Shown here: positions 6,556 to 31,300 of the stretch, in pieces | How positions within the stretch are numbered: position 1 is the stretch's first letter | How the letters are laid out: the number at the start of each line of letters is the position of its first letter | NCBI GenBank assembly: GCA_951799425.1 | Contig: OX637396.1 | Span: forward strand, 39,051,901-39,115,900 | DNA from: Ilex aquifolium | Taxonomy: Eukaryota > Streptophyta > Magnoliopsida > Aquifoliales > Aquifoliaceae | Direction: 5' to 3' | Length of the DNA: 64,000 bases | Program-made: the position numbers and the translations under genes | The notes under the pieces: model-generated | The model's input: the letters and a program-made list of their open reading frames with translations, nothing else | Told to the model about the DNA's origin: nothing | Databases searched by the model: none

Positions 6556-7833
6556 GGGTTTTTTAGGTGTGGGTACAATTTTTTAGACTTATTTAGGCAA
6601 AAGTGTATGGATAAGTTGTTTATTCCATTAAGTACAATTTTTATAAAACTTTTTATGTTTAGGTACAAAATTCAAATGAATTAAAATCATTTTTTACCTA
6701 AACACCCTTCCTTAATTTATGCATTCTTAATTGATAGTTATATATCTAATCAAATATGTAAAGATTTCATTAGATTCTTTCACTACCTCTCCCCTATTTT
6801 CTCTCCATCTCTCTCTCTCTTTCCCCTTTACTTTCTCTATCTCTCCCCTATTTTCTCTCTATATCTATCATTGATAATTTATTTTATTTTCAAATATGTA
6901 AAGATTTGATTTATTTTTTCATCTCTCTCCCTTTATTTTCTGTAACCATTTCGCTCTCTCCCTATTTTATCTCTTTATTTATATCAACATTACAACAACA
7001 TAATTACACTAATCAGTTACACCAATCAGTTACAATTGTCTTATAATACACCAAACAGTTATTCATGCATTCTAATAAACCAAACAGTTACACCAAACAA
7101 TTACACGAATTTATAATATCAACACAATTTGTCAATCAGTTGTTTACATAAACTTAATAGTTACACTATTTAGTATCGCGACATCGTTACACCAATCATA
7201 TATATCAAATTTAGTATAATGATAAAGTTTTTTGTGTAATTATAAACCTAATTTGGTGTATATAATTGATGTAACCATGTCGTGATACTAAATGATGTAA
7301 CTCTTTGATTTATATAAATAACAAAATGACAAATTTGAGTTGGTGTTGTAATTTTGTATAATTGTTTAGTATAACTGTTTAATTTATTATAACACATGAG
7401 TAACTGTTTAGTGTATTATAGGGTAATTGTAACTAATTGGTGTAACTGATTAGTATAATTGTGTTGTGTAACATTGATATAAGGAGAGAGAAAAATGGAG
7501 AGAATAAGGAAATAAGGGGAGAAGGAGTGTGAGAGAGAGAGAAAATAAGCGGTGAGAGAGAGAGAAAATAAGCGGAGAGAGAGATGAAAAAATTAAATCA
7601 AATTTTTACATATTTAAAAAAAATTTATCAATATGAGAGAGAGAGAGAAATAGATATAGAGAAAATAGGAAAGAGAGAGTGAAAGAGTAATGAAGAGAAA
7701 GGAGAGAGAGTAATGGAGTAATAAATACCCTTTTAGTCTTTTTTCAAAAAAATGCACTTAGAGCAAAATAAGTTTTTTTAATGTAGTTTAGCTAAAATAA
7801 GTCTAAATTTTTGTACCGACTTCTAAATTACCC
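6556..7833. mobile_element. 1.28-kb foldback element with ~600-bp inverted arms
   Basis: Ends GGGT...ACCC are inverted; TTTAGACTTATTT near each end and many internal blocks pair in inverted orientation: ATATGTAAAGATTT and CTCTCTCCAT-type tracts against GAGAGAGA tracts, and CAGTTACACCAA against TTGGTGTAACTG. The arms meet near 7215-7240, where TAGTATCGCGACAT (about 7170) faces ATGTCGTGATACTA (about 7279). A runs flank both ends (12 A at 6544-6555, 9 A at 7834-7842), compatible with a 9-bp duplication. No transposase frame is present, so it is a non-autonomous DNA transposon, possibly Mutator-like. Confidence 0.7.
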
Positions 7834-9862: not shown

Positions 9863-9895
9863 AGAAGTATAGCCACCTTTAAGATCACTAACAAG

Positions 9896-11823
9896 ATGAG
9901 AACTAGAAGAGAGAGAATGGAAGAGGAGAGAGGAAGCTCAGCTAGTTCATTCACTAGTGCAATGGCACTTGACCAAATGGGGGTAGCCAATGTACCCCAA
10001 CGTTATGTTCTTCCTCCATCGCAGCGCCCAAACCCTAGTCTTATCTTTCAACCCTCCACTGGTCTACCAGTCATAGACCTTTCCGGTTTATGGCATCCTT
10101 CCGTTAGGTCTCAGACCATCACTGAAGTTCGCATTGCCTGTGAAAAACTTGGTTTCTTCCAGGTATTGTTCACCTTCTTGTCGTCTTTCCGCGTCCCGGG
10201 ACACCTTCTCATCCTCCATAAAAAGAAAAGGAGATATTTTAATATGCATACCATTAGTCGAGTGTAGCTAGCCAAAAAAAAAAGAGAGTGAATTGGGTAC
10301 ATAAAGTTAGCCAGTTATCAGCACATGGCATGTAAGGGTGTGAATTAACAATCATACGTTCTTAGATATGCATGGAAATGAAGAAACAAACGTACATACT
10401 TTAGGACACGTCTTACTGAGATCGTGATCATTACGAACTAAAGAGGAGCACATTAGAAAGATCACGCCAATTACGTTATTTTTTCTCACTTGGAAGCTTA
10501 GAGAAATTTATGTTAATTTTACACATAAAGTGAAACCATGCATTCATTATTGCATTATTATCATTCAAGTTTACGTAAAGATTTTGTATGTTTGCAGGTG
10601 ATTAACCATGGAGTTCCTCTTTCAGTCATAAATGATGCCCTAGACTCTGCGATGTTGTTTTTCAACTTGTCTAACAAGGAGAAGATGTTTCTTGCGTCAG
10701 ATAATGTATATGAACCTGTTAGGTATGGCACAAGTTTGAACCATGTGAAGGATAAAGTTCATTTTTGGAGGGATTTCATCAAGCATTACTCTCATCCAAT
10801 CCCAACATGGATTGACCTATGGCCTTTGAATCCCCCAAGCTACAAGTAAGTAATCTTAGAATATTTTTTAACACTTTCCAAAAAAAGACAGTCCCATGCA
10901 CGAGGTTCTCCCTCCACACAAGCCCAGAAACGCATAAAAACCAGTGAAATGTACCATTTTTCAACAAGTCTTTTGTGTTTTATGTGTTAAGAACTAAGCC
11001 AATAAAATAGGGTTTTTTCTTGCCAAAATCCAAAAGAGTTCTTTCATATTGAAGTTTACAAAAAAATTCCGGAACTGGAGAAGCAAACACTACAAGAATA
11101 TTCATGTTTTGGCGTGCTGATATATTTATACATATTGCAATACTAATTTCATTGTTTAACATTACAGTGTTTTACTGATAGAAGTCATTATTTTATGAAG
11201 TTGTTTAACATGCCAAAGACATCAAAATCAGCAAATTGGTTCTTCTCCACAGGGAAAAGATGGGAAATTATGCAAAGGATGTGCAAGTTTTACACAAGCA
11301 GCTAATGGAAGTAGTTTTTGAAAGCTTGGGACTAAACTCTAATTACTTACACAAAGACATCGAACAGGGCTCACAACTCATGGCTATAAATTGCTACCCA
11401 GCCTGCCCTGAACCAGATCTTGCACTAGGCATGCCACCCCACTCGGACTACGGATACCTAACCATCCTGCATCAATCCCTACTAGGGCTACAAATTATGG
11501 ATCACGATAAGAAGTGGCATTCGGTTCCAGTCATCGAAGGAGCCCTAATAGTTCAGTTGGGAGACCAAATGGAAGTTATGAGCAATGGTCGATATAAAAG
11601 CGTGGTGCATCGAGTTACTGTTAACTCGGAGAAAAGGAGACTGTCTATGACTAGTCTTCACAGTCTTGCTTTGGAGAAGAAGGTAGAACCTGCACCGGAG
11701 CTCGTAGATGAGAAACAACCTCTATTCTACAAAGTTTGTAGCTTCAAAGATTTTCTTGACTTCATTTCTGGCAATGATATCATGGAAGGACGGTTCATAG
11801 ACACATTGAAGAAGAATCCATGA
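9896..11823 (+). CDS. 2-oxoglutarate/Fe(II)-dependent dioxygenase (DOXC class)
   Basis: Exons 9896-10162, 10598-10845 and 11253-11823 give 361 residues in frame. The N-terminal DIOX_N part includes LPVIDLSGLW and CEKLGFFQVINHGVP (across intron 1). The catalytic double-stranded beta-helix carries the iron ligands His235 and Asp237 (PPHSDYGYLT) and His291 (SVVHRVTVN), and the 2-oxoglutarate-binding Arg301-x-Ser303 (RRLSMTS). All key residues are intact. Sequence style is closest to DMR6/flavanone-3-dioxygenase-3/GIM2-like enzymes of specialised and hormone metabolism; the substrate cannot be read from sequence. The soluble enzyme would act in the cytosol. Alternative starts are ATG 9917 and ATG 9962. 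A Met replaces the usual Leu in GDQMEVMSNGRY. Confidence 0.93.
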
Positions 11824-16334: not shown

Positions 16335-17560
16335 TGCTCCATTTTGTATGATGGAAAAATGGAAGGATAGAAATTTGGGAGAATGAAAAGTTGGAGGGAT
16401 AAATAAAATATCATATTTGGTAAGTAATGATGGAAAAGTTGATGGATTAACTTTCTTTCCAACTCACTAAAATCAGAAGGAAAATAGATGAAAAATTAAT
16501 TATTTGTGTTGAGATGTATTTTATTTGTCTATATATCTTTTGATATATGCATATATTATGTATATATTAATTTCATATAAAAATACAATGATAAAATATG
16601 TATTTATATTTATATTTTAAAAAAATTTAAAAATTAAAATTAAAATTAAAACATATTTTAAATTAAAAAAATATATTTTTTTCATCTTAGCTAGGGGTGA
16701 AAATTTTCAACTCAACACGATAATACGACTCGAACTCGACACGAATTTTATGACACGAACTTGAAAATGACCTGACACGCGAACAAAAAATATAAAAGAC
16801 TCATATTCAGTTCAAACTGTCAAACTCAAAATTGATATCATCAACCCGTTTATTTAAAAATAAACACTTTCTTTATTTTCTCGTTTGTATGGTAACACGA
16901 AACTAACATGTCAAACTCAAAATTGACACTATCAACCTGTTTATTTAAAAATAAACACTTTCTCTATTTTCTCGTTTGTATGGTAACACGAAACTAACAT
17001 GTTTAATTAGTATTATAAACATAAAATGTTAATTATTTGTAACTATTTATTAAGCACTGACATAATCTATAATATAAAAAAGATATTTTACTTATTATTA
17101 TTATTATTATATTTATTTAAATTAATTTTTAGTTTGTAGAAAAAATATTAACATGAATTCAATTAAGTGAAAATAGAATATTAGCGTTAAATTTTTTATT
17201 CAAAGTTTATATGGGTCAACACGAATACGAACACGAAGATGACACGAAAATAAACAGGTCAACTCGCAACTCGACACGACACAATTAGTTAAATGAGTTG
17301 AGTTAGATTTGACTAATGTTCGATACAAACCTGTAATGACTCAACACGAATCTGAAACGACACGACTCGATTGTCACCTCTAATCTTAGCCAGCACAAAA
17401 AAAAAAAAAAAAAAATTAATCATTTTTATTTTTCATCCATCCTACCAAACACAAAGTTAGGAAAGTGTATCATTCTTACTTTCTTTCCTTGAAGGATAGA
17501 AAGTGTATCTCTTCTATTTTTCATCATTCTTACTTTCCATCATTCCTACTAAACGGAGCA
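16335..17560. mobile_element. DNA transposon (MITE-like), split by a nested hAT element
   Basis: Ends TGCTCCATTTT and AAACGGAGCA are inverted repeats, with further inverted pairing of ATGATGGAAA and TTTCCATCAT blocks. TTA occurs at both edges (16332-16334 and 17561-17563), which would fit a 3-bp duplication of the PIF/Harbinger type. A 691-bp hAT element lies inside. Without it the element is about 527 bp and non-coding. Confidence 0.6.
16692..17382 (+). mobile_element. Non-autonomous hAT element, family A, copy 1 (691 bp)
   Basis: Ends TAGGGGTGAAAA and TTGTCACCTCTA are inverted and are flanked by exact 8-bp duplications ATCTTAGC (16684-16691 and 17383-17390). The body is rich in CGACACGA and AACACGAA motifs shared with the copies at 25958 and 29244. 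No transposase frame. An internal direct duplication begins near 16817 and 16911 (TCAAACTCAAAATTGA...). Confidence 0.9.
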
Positions 17561-17563
17561 TTA

Positions 17564-18344
17564 ATATATTTTGTCAGGTTCGAACTTAAATTTTGTTTGT
17601 ATCAATTAGTGAATTATTTTCAATCATATTTTTTTATCTCTATTACATAGAGTCCTGACTCCAAGATAAGCTCTCTCTCTTGGTACACATACACATCCTT
17701 GATGTCTAAACTGAGCAAACTTACAACTCATATATCCTATAAATAAAAAAATCTCTGAAATTAAGGAGAAATCTACTGTATTAAAAAAAAAAAAAATGGT
17801 ATTGTACCGTCATTTATAATTTTTGTGAGTATTTTTATAATTTTTAGTAAAAAATTTACTTCGTCTTCTCATGAAATTAATACGTGCAATGTCTGATGTG
17901 AAGTATTCAATGTCCCTGCAACTGCAAGCTTCTACTTCTTAATTTGCCTTTTTTCCAGTGCAATACAAACAACTGAAAACAGTTGACATCTTTGCAAAAC
18001 CGAAGCTACCATGGTTTTCAAGCTCCTGGCCGGCGGCGATGACATATTTACAAGGTTGTACATCTCATCAATTTGGCTGCATGAAGGCAATAACAAACTT
18101 ATTTTTTTTGTCCAAATTGGGCATATGAAGTATGACTTCAACATCGCTGATGGGTGGTTGTACTAGTTTTTCCAGTACAATGCATGCATATACAAAACAG
18201 TTGGATGTACAGACTAGCAAAACCGAAACTTGCCCATAGTTTTCGGGTCGGGTTTGTCTCGTGTGCAAATTATATCGTGTTAAAATTTAGTTATTTGATA
18301 TTTGATTTTGATGAACCCAAAATTAATTGGGTTAGACCCAATAA
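17564..18344. other. Intergenic stretch, AT-rich
   Basis: No gene. A partial duplication is visible between about 17932-18080 and 18140-18245 on opposite phases (GCAAAACCGAAGC and GCAAAACCGAAAC, with TTTTCCAGTGCAATAC and TTTTCCAGTACAATGC). Confidence 0.35.
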
Positions 18345-18729
18345 ATCAAGAAGACCCAAGTACTACAACTCTCTTAGGGTTAGCCACCGTGACCTCACCA
18401 GTAATGAAGAAGACATCCGCATCAACCTCGACTTAGTAGAAGATGAGAGGGAGATAGTCATGCTCAGGAATGCAGAGTACAAGCGTCGTATGACCAAGTA
18501 CTACAACTCGATAGTGAAGCCTCGTTCCTTTTTATCCGGGGATCTAGTCCTAAAAAAGGTCATCCTGTCTACCAAGGACTCCCGGGAAGGAAAACTGGAA
18601 CCCAACTGAGAGGGACTTTACACTGTCACAGAAGTTGTAAGATCGGGTACCTACAGAATCCAGAATTTTGAAGGAAAAGTCCTGACCCATCCATGGAACG
18701 CAGAGCATCTACAAAAATACTACCAGTAA
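18345..18729 (+). pseudogene. Ty3/gypsy (Tat-like) integrase C-terminus, broken
   Basis: The frame reads INLDLVEDEREIV, then PRSFLSGDLVLKKV, then GKLEPN followed by a TGA stop at 18607-18609 where the family has Trp. It goes on in the same frame with EGLYTVTEVVRSGTYRIQ and ends HPWNAEHLQKYYQ before TAA at 18727. This is the well-known end of gypsy polyproteins after the integrase core. Protease, reverse transcriptase, RNase H and the integrase catalytic core are absent, so only the 3' end of pol remains. The motif CCAAGTACTACAACTC occurs both at the left break (about 18355) and inside (18495). Confidence 0.85.
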
Positions 18730-19020
18730 CTGGGGCAGTGAGTTATAAGTTGGTGGTCATTATTTAGACTATTTACTTTTTATTTTTGTCAATTTTCTCA
18801 ATATTTACTTCAAATTATGAAATAAAATTTCACAATGTTTTTTCATAAGTTGTATTTCTTTCAAGTCCATGAAGTCTTTACAAAAGATTGAATTTGACTT
18901 ATCAACAAAAAACGAGAATACAAAGACACCTCCTAATGACACTCACTGTCTCCGCTCCCATCATCGCTCGCGACCTCCTCGTCAGTTTTCGGAGCCTCAT
19001 AAGGTAAAAATCCGAAAAAG

Positions 19021-19834
19021 TCATAAGGCACCTGCCTTGGCCCTCTCAGCAGTATCCCTCATCCTCGCCATCTCTATGGAGTGAGCCTCTGCCCTGGTAG
19101 CTCTCTCAAGGGCTACTCGAAGGTCTGTCTCTAGATGGGCAACCCTCTCATGTGCTAGCCTCAACTGCTCTTCAGCATCTTCTCGTGCCTGCCGCTCGAG
19201 CCCTAATTGCTCTTCAGCAACTTTATGTGCCCGCCTCTCTGCAGCCTAGTCATTGATTGCCTCTTTGATCTTTAACGTACTTGTAAACAAGTAGGGCAAA
19301 GCAGCAGCCACCTGCAGACGGTCAAAGGAAAAATATAAAGGAGAAAGGACAGTACAAAGCCAAAGGAAAATGCGCAGGACATACCAAAGCGAAGCCCTCC
19401 ATAGCAGCGTCGACAACTCCCTCAGGGCCCCTAGAGCCAACCTCATCAACCTCCGTGCGGGTCACAAAACCATAGAGTCTCTCCCTAGCCAACCTCACGT
19501 CTCGCAACATAGATACTGGGGCACTACCCGAAATGGGACAGCTAAGCGGACCCTCTGTAGGAGACCGCGCCAGAGCCTCAATCTTCGCAACACCACCGGC
19601 GCCCAAACGGCCAAAGAGCTCCCCTGATCCTATGGACCCAACGCCAAGGCGACCGAAGCCTCCACTTGGCCCAGCAGACCCAGCTCCCCTAGCTTCACTG
19701 GCGCCGCCCATAGCACCATGGTCACCCAGTTGGGCGCCACCAATAGCACCTTTAGCATCGCTAAGGGCCAGCTCCCTTGAGCTCTCTATTGCCTAACCAC
19801 TGGTACCCATCTTCTTTGAGCTCCTGGTCTCCAT
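19021..19834 (-). pseudogene. Antisense reading frame (aORF) of the Tat-like retroelement
   Basis: Lies 290 bp downstream of the pol end on the opposite strand. Exon 1 (19385-19834) begins METRSSKKMGTSG and runs through a Gly-rich segment; the donor GTATGT and acceptor TCTGCAG define a 73-bp intron (19312-19384). Exon 2 (19021-19311) encodes a Glu/Arg/Ala-rich coiled coil (HKVAEEQLGLERQAREDAE and similar), ending at TGA 19021-19023. The total is about 247 codons, with in-frame TAG stops at codon 14 and just after EAIND. Antisense frames after pol, with introns, are known in the Tat lineage (for example Grande); their function is unknown. A TATAAAT (20136-20142, minus) may be its promoter. Confidence 0.65.
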
Positions 19835-19927
19835 TTGCCTTGTTGTGATTTGAGAAATAGAAGACTAAGTGAGAGAGATGGGTTGATGATCAGTAGCCTC
19901 TTGAAAAGGCCCTTTAAATAGAGGAAG

Positions 19928-20100
19928 GATGGCTTCTTGAAGAAGCTTGGTGGGAAGAATAGCTTATTGGAGAAGCCTTGGAATAGCTTATTGGAGAAGC
20001 TTGGAAGACTAGCTTCTTGGAATAGCTTCTTGGAGAAGCTTGGAAGAATGACTTCTTAGAGAAGCTTTGAAGGATAGCTTCTTGGGGAAGCCTCAGAAGA
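19928..20100 (+). repeat. Minisatellite of AGCTTCTTGGAGAAGCTTGG-type units
   Basis: Imperfect units of about 25-30 bp repeat six or seven times. Each is close to a palindrome (AAGCTTCTTGGAGAAGCTT-like). It sits upstream of the antisense frame, in what was probably the 3' LTR or leader of the retroelement. Confidence 0.7.
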
Positions 20101-20749
20101 AATGAAAAAGAGGAAGGAGAAGACTAAATAGCTCAATTTATAGACAAATACCCAGCAAGAGGAATGCCGAAAAATGCGAAAAATATTCGGTGTCAGTAGA
20201 CTCAATAGAGTACCTGAAGAGGAAAATTCAGTTTGGTGGTGGTGGTGGAAGAAGAAGAAAGGGAGAAAGAGGCATTTGGATTTGGGTTCTTGTTTGGATT
20301 GTGGAGAAAATTTATGATAGAGCACGGTTATTTGAATCTAAGTTTCAAATCCCTCTCTTTTTTATCTGCACACTAGTACAGTGTGTGTACGACTCTCAGT
20401 TTGAAAGAATTGGATGCAAGATCATATTTAGTCAAATTAAAAAGTTATAGGACTAAATTAGTAAAAAAATGAATTAAAATGGGCATACTTAAAATTAATG
20501 ATATCTAAGGGGGTAAGTAGATAATTTACTCTTCATGTGTTAATGTCATCAACCCGTACTTACGGTTCCTTTCCAAACGTCTTTCTCAACACTATTTACG
20601 TGTTCCCTTGGAATTCTCTCTCTCTTCCAGTCCCCCACCCCCTCCCAGCTGACTTCTCCGGTAAAGATCCGTCGGGTTTTGGCCATATCGCGCCGGGAAA
20701 AGCATCAATTTTCCGGCGTCCTTTACGTTTCTCGATCACAATCGTAACC
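20101..20749 (+). promoter_or_regulatory. Promoter and 5' UTR region of the RABD2 gene
   Basis: From about 20450 the DNA changes from retroelement remnant to a CT-rich, GC-richer leader (TTCTCTCTCTCTTCC at about 20615), typical of a plant housekeeping 5' UTR. No clear TATA box. Confidence 0.4.
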
Positions 20750-23700
20750 ATGAATCCCGACTAGTGAGTTCCCTTCAGTCCTCTTCCCTAAATATGACCG
20801 AATTGTATTCACGTCTAATTGATAGCTAGCTTCTGGAGATATGGTGTGTTTTGAAAAACTCGTTTATAACATGTTTGTGATATTGTAGTTATTTTACTAA
20901 TGATTGATGTGATGCTTGATTTGTATTATTATTCCTGATCTGTTCCATAAACCCTAGATATTGAATTTTGGTCTTAGGTCCTTTAGTTGGGGTGTAGCTC
21001 TAATTGTTTAAGAATTAATGTCAATTTGGTTTATGTTTGTCTAAATTGTTAATATCTGCATGCTTACAAGGTGTAGCATATCAAAAAATTGGATGTATGG
21101 CGGGCCAGAATATACCAATTTTTTTTTAATGAATATGGGCATATTTTAAGAAAAATAAGACAGATGTAGAGGAAGAAAGATGGTTAATATTGGTCATTTA
21201 GTCTAATTATTGAGGTTGTGGAAGAATTCTAGGCGTGCATGCCTAATAACTGGTTTTTGTTGTGTTGACCCTTCTTGATGATTTATGAAGAGGCCCTTTG
21301 TTCAGATTTTAGCATAACGACCTTTTTATTGATGCTATCTTGTATTTAACACAGGTTGGTTCCTCATAGAGCAGGCTATAATTTATCTAATTTTTAGCAC
21401 CATAAAGTGAAATTCAAACCAGTGAAGCCTATAAGTGTCTTTCAGATGATAGCCTGGAAAATCTGGAGGTTGCTCTAAGTGCTATTGTAATCTCTATTCA
21501 AACTGATGCAAGCATTCCACCTTAATAATCAGGAAACACAGATAAATGATTACATTAATGTGTTAGATATCATTGTTTGAGAATATCATTGTTTACACAT
21601 TCTTTACAATATGAGAATATCATAGCCCTTATTGCTTACCCCAGTGTACTTTATGTGTTGGTCTTTAACTGAACTGAAAATTGGAAATGCTGTTGCAAAT
21701 TATTGCTTTAAACTCTGTTTAGGATCTGATTGATGGTTGTGAGTCATATTGAGAGCACCAGATCATATTTTACCTTGTAAAACATGTTGCTGCAGAAAAC
21801 CAAAATATTTGTGAATTGTTTACATATGGCCTTGACTCTGTGTGATGCTTTGAATATAATTATTGATAAGAAGGTTAATGTTATCTGCTGTCATTTTGTC
21901 TATATTTTTTCTGTACCTTGGTGAGAGGATTCAGAGTTGAACAGTCATATGTTACTGTTTGCAACCAAAATGGTTCAAATTCAATAAAATTAATATTTCT
22001 GCTGCTTTCTTTTTCAGCGACTACTTGTTCAAGCTTTTGCTTATTGGAGATTCTGGTGTTGGAAAATCATGTCTCCTACTGAGATTTGCTGTAAGTTTTT
22101 TAGGATCTTAAAGCTTTTGAATAGAGGTCTTTTGGAGAACGTATTGTTGTATTTTAGACCCCTGGGGCCAGCTTCTGCTCATAGAGGCACCTGCAGGTGG
22201 TGGAAATGCAATGTTGACTGTGTATGCAATTTTTGAATTAAGGACTTCGTCTGTGTTTCTGATATTATGTTTCATTGCTAGTTGCCTAGTTCACATGCGT
22301 ATATTTTATTATTAGGCATTTTAAGATTCATACATGGTTTTGGGTAATCTGATTCTTGTTCATGTGAAGGGTTCAATTGTCATTCAGTATTGTTTCATAT
22401 GTGGGAGAACAAACTATGTTGCATTTTTCCGATGGATGAAAAGTTCATAAAACCTAACCGAGAATTTGGTTGTTCATTGGAATTGTAGATCCCTTTTGCG
22501 CGTAATGGTTGACATCTGATGAATTACCTTGCATGATCTTGGTTATTACATTGTGCATTGGAAGTTCACTATCTTTTCGCATAACAGTTATTATAAGATT
22601 GTATTTACACATTGATCTGTGACTAGACAGATGTGACAATTTATTCTAGAGCACCATGTTTTGTGATTTGGAAAACCTAAATGTCATGATGGTCTTCTGA
22701 ACACAAGTTTTAGTAAATTTGAAAGCCTTTTTTTTTTTAAAAAAAAAATTTGGTCCTAGTTTTCCTTTTGCTACTCAAAAGTCAAGTCTATAATAATTGA
22801 ATTCAAAACTTATAGAGTTGACAATTTAGACTGGAAAAGCGTTGGCATGTCAATAGTATCAATTAAATAATAGTATAATACTATTCATTATTTGTTTTTG
22901 TTTTTTTTGGTCATGACTATTCATTATTTGTTGAATCTCCATATAATGTGAGGAATAGCTGACTAAACCATTGTAGCATAGTGGTAAGTGGTAATTGTTG
23001 GAATGGCATGTGATGGGTTGGGGTGGGGTTAGGTCCAGTTCTTTTTTTGTTGATTAATAAGTAAACAAATAATGTCACAAAAATCTATAGAAAACCACCG
23101 CCACAACATCAGATCGATAAATCCCACCTAAATGGTGTTGGCTTTGCAAATCTGATTTGTTGGATTACCTTTGATGGGTCCATGTCATTGGTAATACTAC
23201 ACGTCATATCTTTTTTCATTGCTTTAGTTAGTGTTTTATATTTTTTTCCCTATTTGTAATTATGAATATATGATATCTTACAATGTCAGTCAATCACCCA
23301 TGATCAATTTTTATTGATCTTTTTCGCTCATGGCCCTACTATCTAGAGAACTCTCCATGGTCACTCCAGTATCTTAACATTCTTAATTTGGTTGCATTAA
23401 AATGTTGTAATAGTTTTTGATAGTCCTATGTTCTACTTTTATATGTACATGTCTATACCTAAAGAGATTTTGTCTTGCACCTAATAAAAGTGATATAACT
23501 TAATGTGTTCAATGTTATTTTGGAAGCTTTCTTTATTTTATCCAACTTTTTCAATTATATGGGCAGTTTTTTCTTCAATCTCACCTTCCTCATATATATA
23601 TGTACCAAAACCCTGATAATGACATTAATCTTTTCATGGTCCTCTCTTCATAACTCTCATGGTTTCCTCAGTTTTCTTTTCGTTTCTAATGGATTAAAAT

Positions 23701-26700
23701 TTGACATAAATATAGGAAGCCTCCAATTTCTGATGTATGACTGTAATTTACAACTGCTTGTGTATTATCTGCAGGAGTCAATGGATTAGCCCTGTTATAT
23801 AGGCTGTGGCTTGATAGTGTTGTTATGAACTTGGTTTACTTTCAGTTGTGAGCATATGAAAATATATTAAATGTTTCCCATTTAAGATTTTAATTGCTCT
23901 CATCGGCAATGTCTCTAAGCTGGCACCAGGTTTGGTTTGTTTTACTTTCAAGATTTTAAATTTTTATATTACAGATGAATTATTGTAATGTAATTTTGAT
24001 TACCTTGAAAGGAGTTTGAGTCGATGAGATACTTAAATACTCTCTTTTGTGGAATACTATTATAATATCTCCATTATAGCAGTAAAATAAATGATGAAGG
24101 AGATCAAAAAGACCTTTTGATTTTTATGTATGGACTAAAGAAACGAATTCCTTCCTTATCCGGGTGCCACCTCATCTTTTTCAAAAGTAGTTGGCATGCT
24201 GCACTTATGTTTTTGTTGAGTATAACAACTCAGATTCCTAGTAATGAGTCTTATTCTAATTGCAATGACCATGATTTATTTTAATTTAATTTTTAACTGG
24301 TGCTATTGCCCCTGGCTCCTCCCATATAAGTTTGGCTTTATACTCTCAGTATGCCATGCCTATTCTACTTCATTCTTTGCGCAAATTGTGTGCTTTTCAG
24401 TAAGGGCAAGTAATTTGATGATAAAATATTTGTGGAGGGCATTTCCTCATGGGCAACATGGCTTTCATGAATTCTTTTTGCGAATGTAAGTTGAATATAT
24501 GATCAAGACATCTGGACGAGTTATCATGCATATGGGATTGCTTTTGTTGATTTAAATTGTCTCCATGTTGGAGATTTCTTGATGTAATGCTAATGAAACC
24601 ATCACTATTTTCTTGGTTTCCCTTCCTTTTTTTTTTTTTTTTTTTTTTATGTTTTAGGATGATTCATATTTGGAGAGTTACATAAGCACCATTGGAGTTG
24701 ATTTTGTAAGTAAATATTTTGCCATAAGCAACTACTTTATTTTGCTTAAAGCAATTATTGTACTTCTATGTGGTCTGTTGGTACTTTTTGTTTATGGTAA
24801 CATGTTTGCTTTTGTAGAAAATACGCACTGTGGAGCAAGATGGGAAGACCATCAAACTTCAAATTGTAAGGTTTTGCTTGCACCGCATTTTTCTTCTTTG
24901 ATTATGTCTAATTATTTTATCGAGTGCTTTATGAATATGCCCCTCTTGGCATTTTTTTAAGCTAGTTGGAAATTGGCCAGTTCTTACTTGTGTGTTACAT
25001 TCCACTTGACAATGGTAGTTAGGTCTGTAATCTGGTTCTATTTGTATGTTTGTTCTCCTTTTTCTTAAACTGGTTTTGCTTTGATAGGGGTGACCAACAG
25101 AACATTTTTTCCTGATTTCTTAATGACTAAATTATACCAGTTTACTTTTTCAACTATATGCAGTGGGATACTGCCGGACAAGAACGTTTTAGGACAATCA
25201 CTAGCAGCTACTATCGTGGGGCACACGGGATTATAGTGAGTACTTTTCTCTATTTCCCATTGCGAGTATTTTTCCTTTCTCGTCTAATTAATATGTATTC
25301 CCTGTTTACTATCGTGGTGGCTTGTGGTGGCTTCTTGTATAGGTGGTTTATGATGTGACGGACCAAGAGAGCTTCAACAATGTCAAGCAGTGGCTTAATG
25401 AAATTGATCGCTATGCAAGTGAAAATGTTAACAAACTTCTTGTTGGGAACAAGTGTGATCTCACTGCAAATAAAGTTGTGTCATATGAAACAGCCAAGGT
25501 AAACGAGTTGTCCATAAGTTGTTCTTTTGTGATTGAATGAAGATTACATTTGTTAGCAGTTTGTTATGAGCTTGGTCTTTCTTTAATTCCTTGTAGGCAT
25601 TTGCTGATGAAATCGGGATTCCTTTCATGGAAGCCAGTGCAAAGGATGCTACTAACGTAGAGCAGGCTTTCATGGCCATGACTGCTGCGATAAAAAATAG
25701 GTAATTACCCTATGCTTAGTCGTCAGTTACAATTCTATGAAAGTGATTAGAAGTAATTTTTTATGAAGATCAACCCCTCCTTTTGATTGCTTTTACATGA
25801 AAAGGGGTTTTTGATTTTGGATGATGGCATGGTTCATTGATAGATTGATAGAAATGGGGACCACCTATCTTCTAGGGGAACTCACTTAAAAGCTTCACAA
25901 AGAGGGTGAATATGAAGTTATTAATTAATGTTGCGTGCTCGCCATCAAGATCTCACCTAGGGGTGGCAATTGTGTGGTGTTGGGTCGTGTTTGTGTCGTG
26001 TTCATGTCTAGCACTAGTCAACTTTAATCCAACTCATTTAATTAATTGTGTCATACTAAATTGACCTATTTATTTTTATATCATGTTTGTGTTGACTGTT
26101 GACCTATATAACTCATGAATCAAAAATTTAACACTAATATTTTATTCTAAGATTCTATTATCTCTTAACCGAACTCACTCATAGTTTTTCCATAAGCTGA
26201 AAATTAACTTAATACATATAATTACAAAAATAAGTTAAAAAAAACGTTCTTATTGTATAAGGATTATGTCAGTACTTGATAAAAAAATAATAAAAATTTA
26301 GGCATTTTATTCCTATTATTCTAGTTAAACGTACTAATCGTGTCAATTGTGGGTTATTCATATTTGACACTAACTCGATTCATTTATTATTTGTATTAGT
26401 AGGTCGTGTCATTTTCGGATTCGTGTTAAGAAATAATTAAGCATAACCTAATAATTTCGTGTCGATAACGAGGAGTGGTTACATGTTATGTCAAAAATTA
26501 TCACCCCTGATCTCACCTTTCATCTTTAATTTTGCCGGGTTTCTTGAGGTTTCAATGAATTGCTCTGGCACTTGGTTTATAAACTTAAGGAATTCCTCAT
26601 TGCTACAACCATTATAATGAACAATATAATTTATATGATAATCTAGCATTCCATATTAGTTGCATTAAAGTTTCTTAAATTGTGGAGTACTTTGAACTAT

Positions 26701-28374: not shown

Positions 28375-31300
28375 TCACTTGGCACCTAAGGTTGGGAACT
28401 GCCCTTGATCTTCAATGGCAGGGGCTTCCACATTGCTCATTCTACCGCCTCCACTGTAGCTGCCTCTGCCACCACGTCCACGCCCACGACCACGACCACC
28501 AGGACTATAGTAACTCTTCCCTTCCGCAGGCTTCAAGAACTCGTTGATACTGACAGCCTAGAACAGCCAGAGGGGAAAAAGTTAAAAAAAAAAAAAACAT
28601 CAAACTTAAAGATAAATGAATTCACTTGTTAAAAATGCATTACCAAATTGTTTTCATTTATTTATGTACGGTTGAATACTTGATTGAGTAATTCTATGTG
28701 CACCAAAAATGTTCACCAAATGATTGTCATTGGATGATAGTCGGTCCCACTGTTCCAAAGGCTGACAATGATTTGTTGCACATTTTTTGTGCACATAGCA
28801 TGACAATACTTGAATAAAGCAAAATGCACTGGTCTCAAAAGTGTCTTCCTCCAAGTGCAGGCACATGGTTACAAAACATACGATTTTCTTTTTTTCGGGG
28901 GAGGGGGCGAGTAGATTTTGCTAAGCACATTGGGTCTAGTGCCCAAAAATGTACTTGGTCTCCTCGCCAAATGCCCACCGGGAGCTAGTGAAAAAGCAAT
29001 TGGAAATCCAGGGGAATAAAAAGGTCCAGATATTTAAAAGGTATGTTATTTTAACTTCACAGTACAACGGAAAAAACAAATGAAAAAAATATTAGGCTCC
29101 ATAGGCTGCAGAGAAAGACGAAAATAGATAATTAGGAGTCTTAGATTATGACAGAAGGGCCAATAGGCATGGAAAATTTGAACTATTGGGGTGTGATGCC
29201 ATCATCTGATTATATAGAATTAAGTGGCATGGCAAACAGCAATTAGAGTGGGCAATTTTTGACACGACACGAAATTAACGGATTAGGGTTGGTCATTTCT
29301 CGACACGAACCCGTACATAACACGACTCGTTAACACGGATAATAAATGGACCGGGTTAGTGTCAAACACAAACACAAAATTGACACAATTAACATGTTTA
29401 ACTAGTATTATAAAAATAAAATGCCAAAATTTTATTATATTTTATCAATTAGTGACCTAATTCTTGTACAAAAAATATATTTTTACTCATTTTTATTATT
29501 ATATATATTAAGTTAATTTTTAATTTATAGAAAACATATGAGCATAGGTTTGATTAAGTGATTTTAGACTTAAATCTGAGCGTTAAATTTTTTATTCATG
29601 GGTTATATGAGTCAACACGAATACAACATGAAAATAAATAGGTCAAATCGATACGATTAGTTAAACAGGTTAGATTAGAGTTGTCTAGTGCTCAACACGA
29701 ACCCAAAATGACACGACATGATATGATTGCTACCCCTAACAGCAATGATTATCATGCACCGCTGCTTGTGGAAGGCACTCCTCACTTCAAGCATATTAGA
29801 CACAACTGGACAGGCTTGGGCAGTAGTAAATCAGGCGCAAGTATTAGTCAGCATTAAAAAATGATCCCTCATCATTAACATGTTTGCTTGTGTCAGTCAT
29901 GCAGCCTCAAAAAATTGATGGCGGCATCTTTTACTTATACCATTAGTTCTAGTACACTTGGGAATTCTTAGTTGGCTAGTTGTAAGAAGTGCCCCCAACC
30001 ATCGAACAAAGGATTATCCCGGACCCGCACAAAATATCTATTCTTAGACTCACAAAATGGAACGTGATAATGATGAGTTAGAATGCCATAGAAACAGAGA
30101 GACATAATGTGTTACCTACTCTTAACTCAAAGCGAGCCAAAGCAAGTGGGTAGAAGTTCTGTTGGTCTGATGTACGAATGCAAATTTAAGTAGCCCGAGA
30201 ATAATTAATATGATCGAATAGAAAAGTCCAGATATTTAAACGGACATTTTTTGGCAAGCCATGTCCAAATTTCCTCAATAAGAGGTATCATGTTCACAAT
30301 CCAGTGGGCAGGCCAAATTTGACAACTATGATCTTCCTATATAAAATGGTGAGCAGAAAACACTCTGCAAACATAACATACAAAGATTGACTTTCAGATT
30401 CTTGGTGATTTACATCACTCATGGACCAGAAGTCAAACAAATGAAGAGCCATGAACAAAAATATAGAGCAAGCAAGGAAGATTAGTGAATAAGCTGACAA
30501 AACTGACACAAAGACAGTGAAGTGTAAATATAAAGGAATGGAATGCCAATGGCAGAGGTTAGAGCACAGGCAATATGCATATTTTGAATACAAGGTCTGA
30601 CTGAGTTCCTTGGAGATCCAGACATCCCAAGCATATATAACTATGCATGTATAGCAATAAACAAGGGACGCGTAAGTAGCAATACCTTCTTGGCTTTCTC
30701 TTCTTTCTCGGCTCGCTTATCCTTGTCAGAGCCCTTTTAAACAAATGAAATGGAATATGATCAGTACCTCAAAAAAATTCTTTGAAATAACAAGTACCTC
30801 ATATAATTGCATTAGGCAATAACAAGTACTAGATAAGATTGTCATTACTAACTACAGAGTTAACCCTTGACGAGTATGTAGAAATGCTTAAGGAGTGCAT
30901 GGTATCTCACCAGTTTGATAAAAATGTCATCATTGTTCTTCTTCTTGTTTGAAATTTGTTGCATGGATTCAAACTCCTTGACATCAACCTTCCTTTCCTG
31001 GGTTTTAAGTGTTTGAAGAGCCTTCCTCTTCTCTTCGAGCACCTTCTCATACTCTTCAAGAGTCATCTCCTACATTATCACGTAAGAATTACGATAAGCA
31101 ATTATAGAATAGCATCAGTGTTATTTAAGGCGTAAAACAAACCGAAGTGAACCGGTCTCCCGAGAGCCTAGGCGAGAAGCAAAGCGAACCCTTCATCGAA
31201 ACAAAGCGAACAATATAAAAAATAAACAAATATTTTAGTTTAATACTTTGATTACTCTTAAATATTCAAGTTTTAACTTTACAAATTCCAAATATTTAAA

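Follow-up and report, generated by a model that had tools for sequence, protein, structure and literature searches.

An apparently spliced antisense gene in Retand-like elements of Ilex aquifolium and its deleted copy in one genomic window

Comparison of a 64,000-nucleotide stretch of Ilex aquifolium DNA (the window, G000:C6:39051901-39115900) with related copies in the same genome points to a conserved antisense gene, with about five exons and apparently spliced, in the Retand-like elements of this plant. It is probable that such an element, reduced to a remnant by extensive deletion, lies in the window and that its relatives carry this gene, as one unit, between pol and the 3' end. The low dN/dS of the relatives suggests that selection kept the split gene in them. 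The window feature by itself is an ordinary broken fragment of the larger gene. An initial annotation of the window had treated a two-exon antisense frame as the unit, and this has to be replaced by the larger gene of about five exons.

The remnant in the window

By comparison with other copies, the element remnant spans about 18309-20226 of the window (Table 1), and it lacks gag, the greater part of pol and the remainder of the 5' LTR. There is no complete two-LTR structure, as the copy keeps 53 bp of a putative 5' LTR and the 3' LTR is absent. These 53 bp would be the LTR start, judging by their match to other copies; a second LTR was located in no copy. The pol C-terminus ends HPWNAEHLQKYYQ at 18688-18726 of the plus strand and is followed downstream by the antisense frame on the minus strand, just as had been reported. 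This frame has its ATG at 19834 and runs for 150 codons to 19385, and a frame of 96 codons begins at 19311, after an interval of 73 bp. The GTATGT...CTGCAG interval, the TATAAAT on the minus strand and the two in-frame TAG codons described initially were all found in place. A Pfam scan of five pieces of the window gave no family in any of them.

Table 1. Features of the remnant and of its antisense gene (positions in the window)
Feature	Position	Strand	Remarks
Putative 5' LTR start (TGATGA...)	18309..18361	+	53 bp kept; matches the sequence right after the purine-rich stretch of other copies
pol C-terminus (integrase tail)	18368..18729	+	Single in-frame stop at 18610-18612
Exon 5 (coiled coil, acidic tail)	18933..19311	-	TAG at 19246-19248
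Intron 4 of the family gene (apparent)	19312..19384	-	73 bp, GTATGT..CTGCAG, phase 0
Exon 1 start (METRSSKK.., Gly/Ala-rich) fused to exon 4 end (..EGFAL)	19385..19834	-	TAG at 19793-19795
Internal-deletion junction	19579..19589	-	TRP28 exon, small exon and most of exon 4 removed
Degenerate tandem repeats	19923..20101	-	Units of about 13, 24-26 and 39 bp; between the TATA box and the ATG
TATAAAT	20136..20142	-	About 300 bp ahead of the antisense ATG
Final stretch alignable to other copies	20143..20226		Relatives continue into a purine-rich stretch and a 3' LTR, both missing here

The "Gly-rich N-terminal half" of the initial annotation is a product of the internal deletion, which fused the Gly/Ala-rich start of exon 1 to the end of exon 4. 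In the copies keeping both sides of the internal deletion (L009, L012, L013 and L014), the two halves of what is one exon in the window are about 1.5-3.5 kb apart, and a short similar stretch is found at both ends of the deletion. When a probe for the junction was searched, 19 places in the genome were matched; the window alone spanned the junction and the other 18 of 18 places covered one side, suggesting that the deletion is private to the window as far as the junction-probe search reaches. A shared subfamily of deletion derivatives was discarded, because the junction appeared in no other place in this search, which skips low-complexity words.

Relative to L010, L012 and L024, exon 5 of the window has an 84-nt in-frame deletion at about 19204 and a 53-nt deletion at about 19026 that shifts the frame, contradicting the earlier statement that no frameshift was evident. 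The frame first described stops at 19021-19023; the displaced ending ..SECH* is read in a different frame and terminates at 18933-18935. The two stops in 246 codons amount to 0.81 per 100 codons versus 0.35-0.81 in the exons of the other copies, whose values come from aligned pieces and understate their frameshifts; within the family, these values give no support to a lighter decay, which had been claimed relative to the neighbouring repeats. The idea that this copy was spared is likewise unsupported: it lost its C-terminal frame along with the exons removed by the internal deletion. With two stops, a frameshifting deletion and missing exons, the window copy has no intact reading frame and is a pseudogene.

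Changes private to the window were counted where the relatives agree. In exons 4 and 5 (45 + 54 codons) there were 6 silent changes and 9 altering or stop changes, the expectation without selection for these exons being about 2.5-2.9 to 1; the numbers are small, and they are compatible with the absence of selection. The pol tail (49 codons) showed 5 silent versus 1 altering change, a ratio below the neutral one in a tiny sample that may predate the insertion. Selection on the window copy was not supported, the private substitutions being too few.

Other features were noted in the window. A Rab1-like gene begins on the plus strand about 0.5 kb past the remnant (20750-22090), with its ATG at 20750 and an exon piece (22019-22090) that matches Rab-1A at 3e-10, and the remnant may lie in the upstream region of this gene. 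Frames resembling, by eye, the exons of a 2-oxoglutarate-dependent dioxygenase gene are found at 9863-11823 of the plus strand, and 6798-7700 holds a long, imperfect inverted repeat that shares about 71% identity with its reverse complement. An AT-rich repeat occurs in three dispersed places, 16992-17349, 26000-26464 and 29265-29721, with a similarity of 70-73% among the copies.

The antisense gene in other copies

The same genome has other copies that share the antisense frame: with the stop-free part of exon 1 as query, the 800-Mb assembly yielded 150 scored matches from 1130 candidates, the window being included and some copies matching twice. We compared 36 copies from the top of the similarity ranking, several of them picked for long open frames, and they are a non-random sample. 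A separate stretch (G000:C1:28998732-29005299, partly L043) bears five matches to the antisense gene on one strand at a spacing of about 1.6 kb, a portion of the gene being tandemly repeated there.

The exon structure was read from native copies with no mending. In the 36 other copies, about five exons can be read in the antisense gene, split by short GT-AG introns of consistent phase, and the exon queries, drawn from different copies, total about 770 codons. Exon 1 has a METRSSKK.. start, is Gly/Ala-rich and ends ..SSRG. Exon 2, which ends ..VKQ, carries the Pfam domain Transposase_28 (TRP28, PF04195), exceeding the Pfam curated cut-off in all three frames scanned (6.2e-7, 3.2e-6 and 1.9e-7); it was matched in 34 of the 36 copies (missing in L018 and L019), and it sits between the two parts that the window fuses into one exon, being absent there by deletion. 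Exon 3 was 129 nt long in 30 of the 32 copies parsed, and 118 and 131 nt in the remaining two. Exon 4 (..SIDRS.. SKRAK.. EGFAL) has basic clusters, and exon 5 is a coiled coil, recognised by eye, with an acidic tail ending ..DGSGGSECH*. An exact TATAAA was present in the aligned piece of 7 of the 21 copies that could be aligned at that region.

Exon 1 and intron 1 were the weakly conserved parts: the SSRG-type donor was seen in 19 of 32 copies examined, with a candidate acceptor about 79 nt further in many of them. Intron 2 (73-75 nt) had a GT donor in 30/32 copies and intron 3 (64-76 nt) an AG acceptor in 29/32; the intron 2 acceptor and the intron 3 donor were located by patterns requiring them and were excluded as evidence. 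Intron 4 corresponds to the interval of the initial annotation, which recurs at variable length (64-103 nt) in the 34 of 37 sequences, window included, where it could be measured; it was left unmeasured in L028, which lacks exon 5, and in L033 and L038, where the exons are too far apart. Its donor was GT in 32/34 sequences (exceptions L015 and L039) and its acceptor AG in 33/34 (exception L010), and its lengths fell into modulo-3 class 1 in 15 cases, class 0 in 13 and class 2 in 6. In five copies (L018, L022, L029, L031 and L035) intron 4 was a multiple of three and open, and read-through is possible there, the edge in L029 being doubtful. Intron 4 diverged more than exon 4 (median 0.42 vs 0.33, 434 pairs). 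In this comparison it has the properties of a GT-AG intron, that is, fixed sites, variable length and a frame restored on removal.

In L018 (G000:C14:1617500-1626500), exons 4 and 5 are open over 291 aa through the intron; a pol match was not found nearby, and gag-like frames lie alongside, possibly from a nested element.

The class of the element was deduced from its relatives. In L024, the domains RVT_1, RT_RNaseH and RVT_3 follow one another in a single frame and are followed by the integrase; RVT_3 was taken to be the additional RNase H (aRH). The initial assignment to a Tat-type gypsy remnant agrees with this aRH-type domain order, although the region is lost from the window copy. The Tat clade is described as having an aRH, placed between RH and integrase in Ogre and Retand, in passages of PMC6317226. 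An antisense TRP28 ORF of the Retand type is found downstream of pol in the other copies and is deleted in the window copy, and the assignment to Retand rather than Ogre, which rests on TRP28, is a probable one. These comparisons support a place for the window element in the Tat clade of Ty3/gypsy, as a Retand-like copy reduced to a remnant by heavy deletion.

A distant TRP28 family was detected in the same genome. The search with PF04195 gave 150 scored matches of 5837 candidates, many of them frames of 360 and 364 aa with equal score. In one 3-kb stretch (L045) the TRP28 exon shares 29% identity with its counterpart in L013 and is followed by a small exon of 171 nt, a basic exon and one with a coiled coil, the reading frame changing along the way. 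The phases of its introns 2, 3 and 4 were 1, 1 and 0, matching those of the window's family; L045 was the sole copy of its family whose introns were read, and the comparison covers exon 2 onward with the intron 3 acceptor unplaced. A 271-bp probe from the basic exon of L045 gave 40 scored matches (793 candidates) of 93-100% identity, which indicates recent amplification. PF04195 had 0 matches in 14 control genomes, and among viral contigs searched with the TRP28 alignment 108 pattern matches were obtained, none of which was confirmed as a relative.

Constraint and alternative explanations

Selection on the reading frame was evaluated by NG86 dN/dS summed over pairs of copies, with the window excluded and only pairs with dS of 0.05-1.2 considered; as pairwise values include the neutral decay that follows insertion, they are raised. 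The dN/dS was 0.26 for the TRP28 exon (bootstrap 0.23-0.31; 312/465 pairs, 31 copies), 0.44 for exon 4 (0.37-0.56; 558/561 pairs, 34 copies), 0.42 for exon 5 (0.36-0.52; 507/528 pairs, 33 copies) and 0.66 for exon 1 (0.63-0.79; 70/171 pairs, 19 copies), and the integrase tail, used as a control, gave 0.27 (0.18-0.38; 321/325 pairs, 26 copies). None of these values is near 1, and the TRP28 exon is constrained as strongly as the integrase. The initial annotation is supported in regarding the antisense frame as a genuine coding frame; many copies in the same genome have this frame under constraint.

Shifted frames had a dN/dS of 0.75-1.37. One reverse-strand frame was also low (0.67 for exon 1; 0.35, 0.51 and 0.54 for the other exons evaluated; 0.35 for the integrase), which is what facing third positions would produce; the strand control is therefore weaker than the shift control and uninformative for exon 1. 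Stops separated the frames better, the coding frame having 0.35-0.81 per 100 codons and the other five 1.24-9.35. Most copies of the family are broken: a stop was present in the aligned piece of 14/19 copies for exon 1 and 17/31 for exon 2 and, with the window included, of 15/35 for exon 4 and 18/34 for exon 5, and exon 3 had an in-frame stop in 14/32 copies. Many of the exon 3 stops (L009-L044) lie in the same few codons, mostly as a Gln codon changed to a stop.

It is improbable that the antisense frames are independent ORFs, or the pieces of a single ORF broken up by old indels, with spacers in place of the introns. Antisense ORFs of at least 600 bp are indeed scored individually in a published survey (PMC11963269), and in five copies the interval between exons 4 and 5 is open and a multiple of three; however, independent indels would not yield GT in 32/34 and AG in 33/34 sequences at the same place with lengths in three modulo-3 classes, nor leave a 129-nt exon between two short intervals in 30/32 copies, nor match the phases in a family whose TRP28 is 29% identical. 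A frameshift instead of an intron is disfavoured by the same intron 4 sites and lengths and by the constant small exon. That the antisense transcript, and not a protein, is the functional product, acting as double-stranded RNA against the element, as raised in passages of PMC7264820, is an even less probable explanation because the codon-level constraint on the TRP28 exon equals that on the integrase; transcript and protein roles could nevertheless coexist.

It is extremely unlikely that the window copy has been kept by selection as a host gene or as a regulatory piece near the Rab1-like gene. The two stops, the frameshifting deletion and the loss of TRP28 argue against it, as does a deletion junction found nowhere else in the search, despite the frame kept over the internal deletion, the TATA-like box of its own, and the end of the remnant about 0.5 kb ahead of the Rab1-like start codon. 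Private changes in its pol tail, 5 of them silent and 1 altering, speak for such a role but may predate the insertion; those in exons 4 and 5, with 6 silent and 9 altering or stop changes, are too few to decide.

The one-gene reading and known systems

If the antisense gene is one spliced gene, what the window copy keeps of it is a fusion of portions of exons 1 and 4, then intron 4, then an exon 5 with a shifted frame. The gene would be transcribed from its own promoter and spliced by the host, and its product would gain a TRP28 domain, basic clusters, a coiled coil and an acidic tail. The best functional reading of this domain make-up and of published reports, a tentative one, is a nuclear, self-associating, coiled-coil, DNA-linked accessory protein that would regulate the element. 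Retrotransposition copies the element through sense RNA, and on the simplest view the introns would survive RNA-mediated copying, because the sense genomic RNA would contain only their reverse complements, which the spliceosome would not recognise. A pattern over the exon 4 end and the intron 4 donor had 207 matches (0 for the reversed control), and one over joined exons 4 and 5, which spans a more variable exon start, had no match in the genome, a result suggestive of introns that are not lost during copying. This would be a natural example of an antisense orientation that keeps introns from being lost, and it would point to capture of the gene in the form of DNA and not of processed RNA. Taking everything together, we lean somewhat towards the Retand antisense ORFs being exons of a single, ancient gene that is spliced, that already had its introns when it was acquired and that has kept them over many cycles of copying through RNA thanks to its antisense position. 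It would encode a nuclear regulator with TRP28 and a coiled coil, the TRP28 part matching the integrase in its degree of conservation.

Surveys scoring only long ORFs would see fragments of such an antisense gene of Tat/Retand elements. A limited literature search, key older papers not included, found no account of a multi-exon spliced antisense gene in such elements; a term search showed that the word intron is absent from the main text of PMC11963269 and of PMC7264820, and passages of the latter, a review, ask for a search for antisense and spliced transcripts.

Antisense TRP28 (Transposase_28, PF04195) ORFs are known in Retand-lineage elements, and those described in PMC11963269 resemble the present gene in their location, antisense between pol and the 3' LTR, and in their TRP28 domain. 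Other antisense ORFs of the same elements have Smc-like matches, of the coiled-coil type, and tandem repeats lie near, a further likeness. There the ORFs are described as separate, whereas here they are read as exons of one gene. Gene23 of the maize Grande element is likewise an antisense accessory gene transcribed from its own promoter, and its product has been reported as nuclear (passages of PMC7264820). Ogre and EVADE, according to passages of PMC6317226 and PMC12786077, have sense-strand introns spliced by the host, and the likeness lies in host-spliced introns within plant LTR retrotransposons, with splicing inferred in our case. Those introns belong to sense-strand genes that are the element's own; introns of the antisense gene, in contrast, could not be lost by the genomic RNA. 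Retrotransposition reporters share the logic of orientation and splicing (passages of PMC12786077), but their intron is oriented with the element and lost on transposition, whereas the introns proposed here are oriented with the antisense gene and would be kept.
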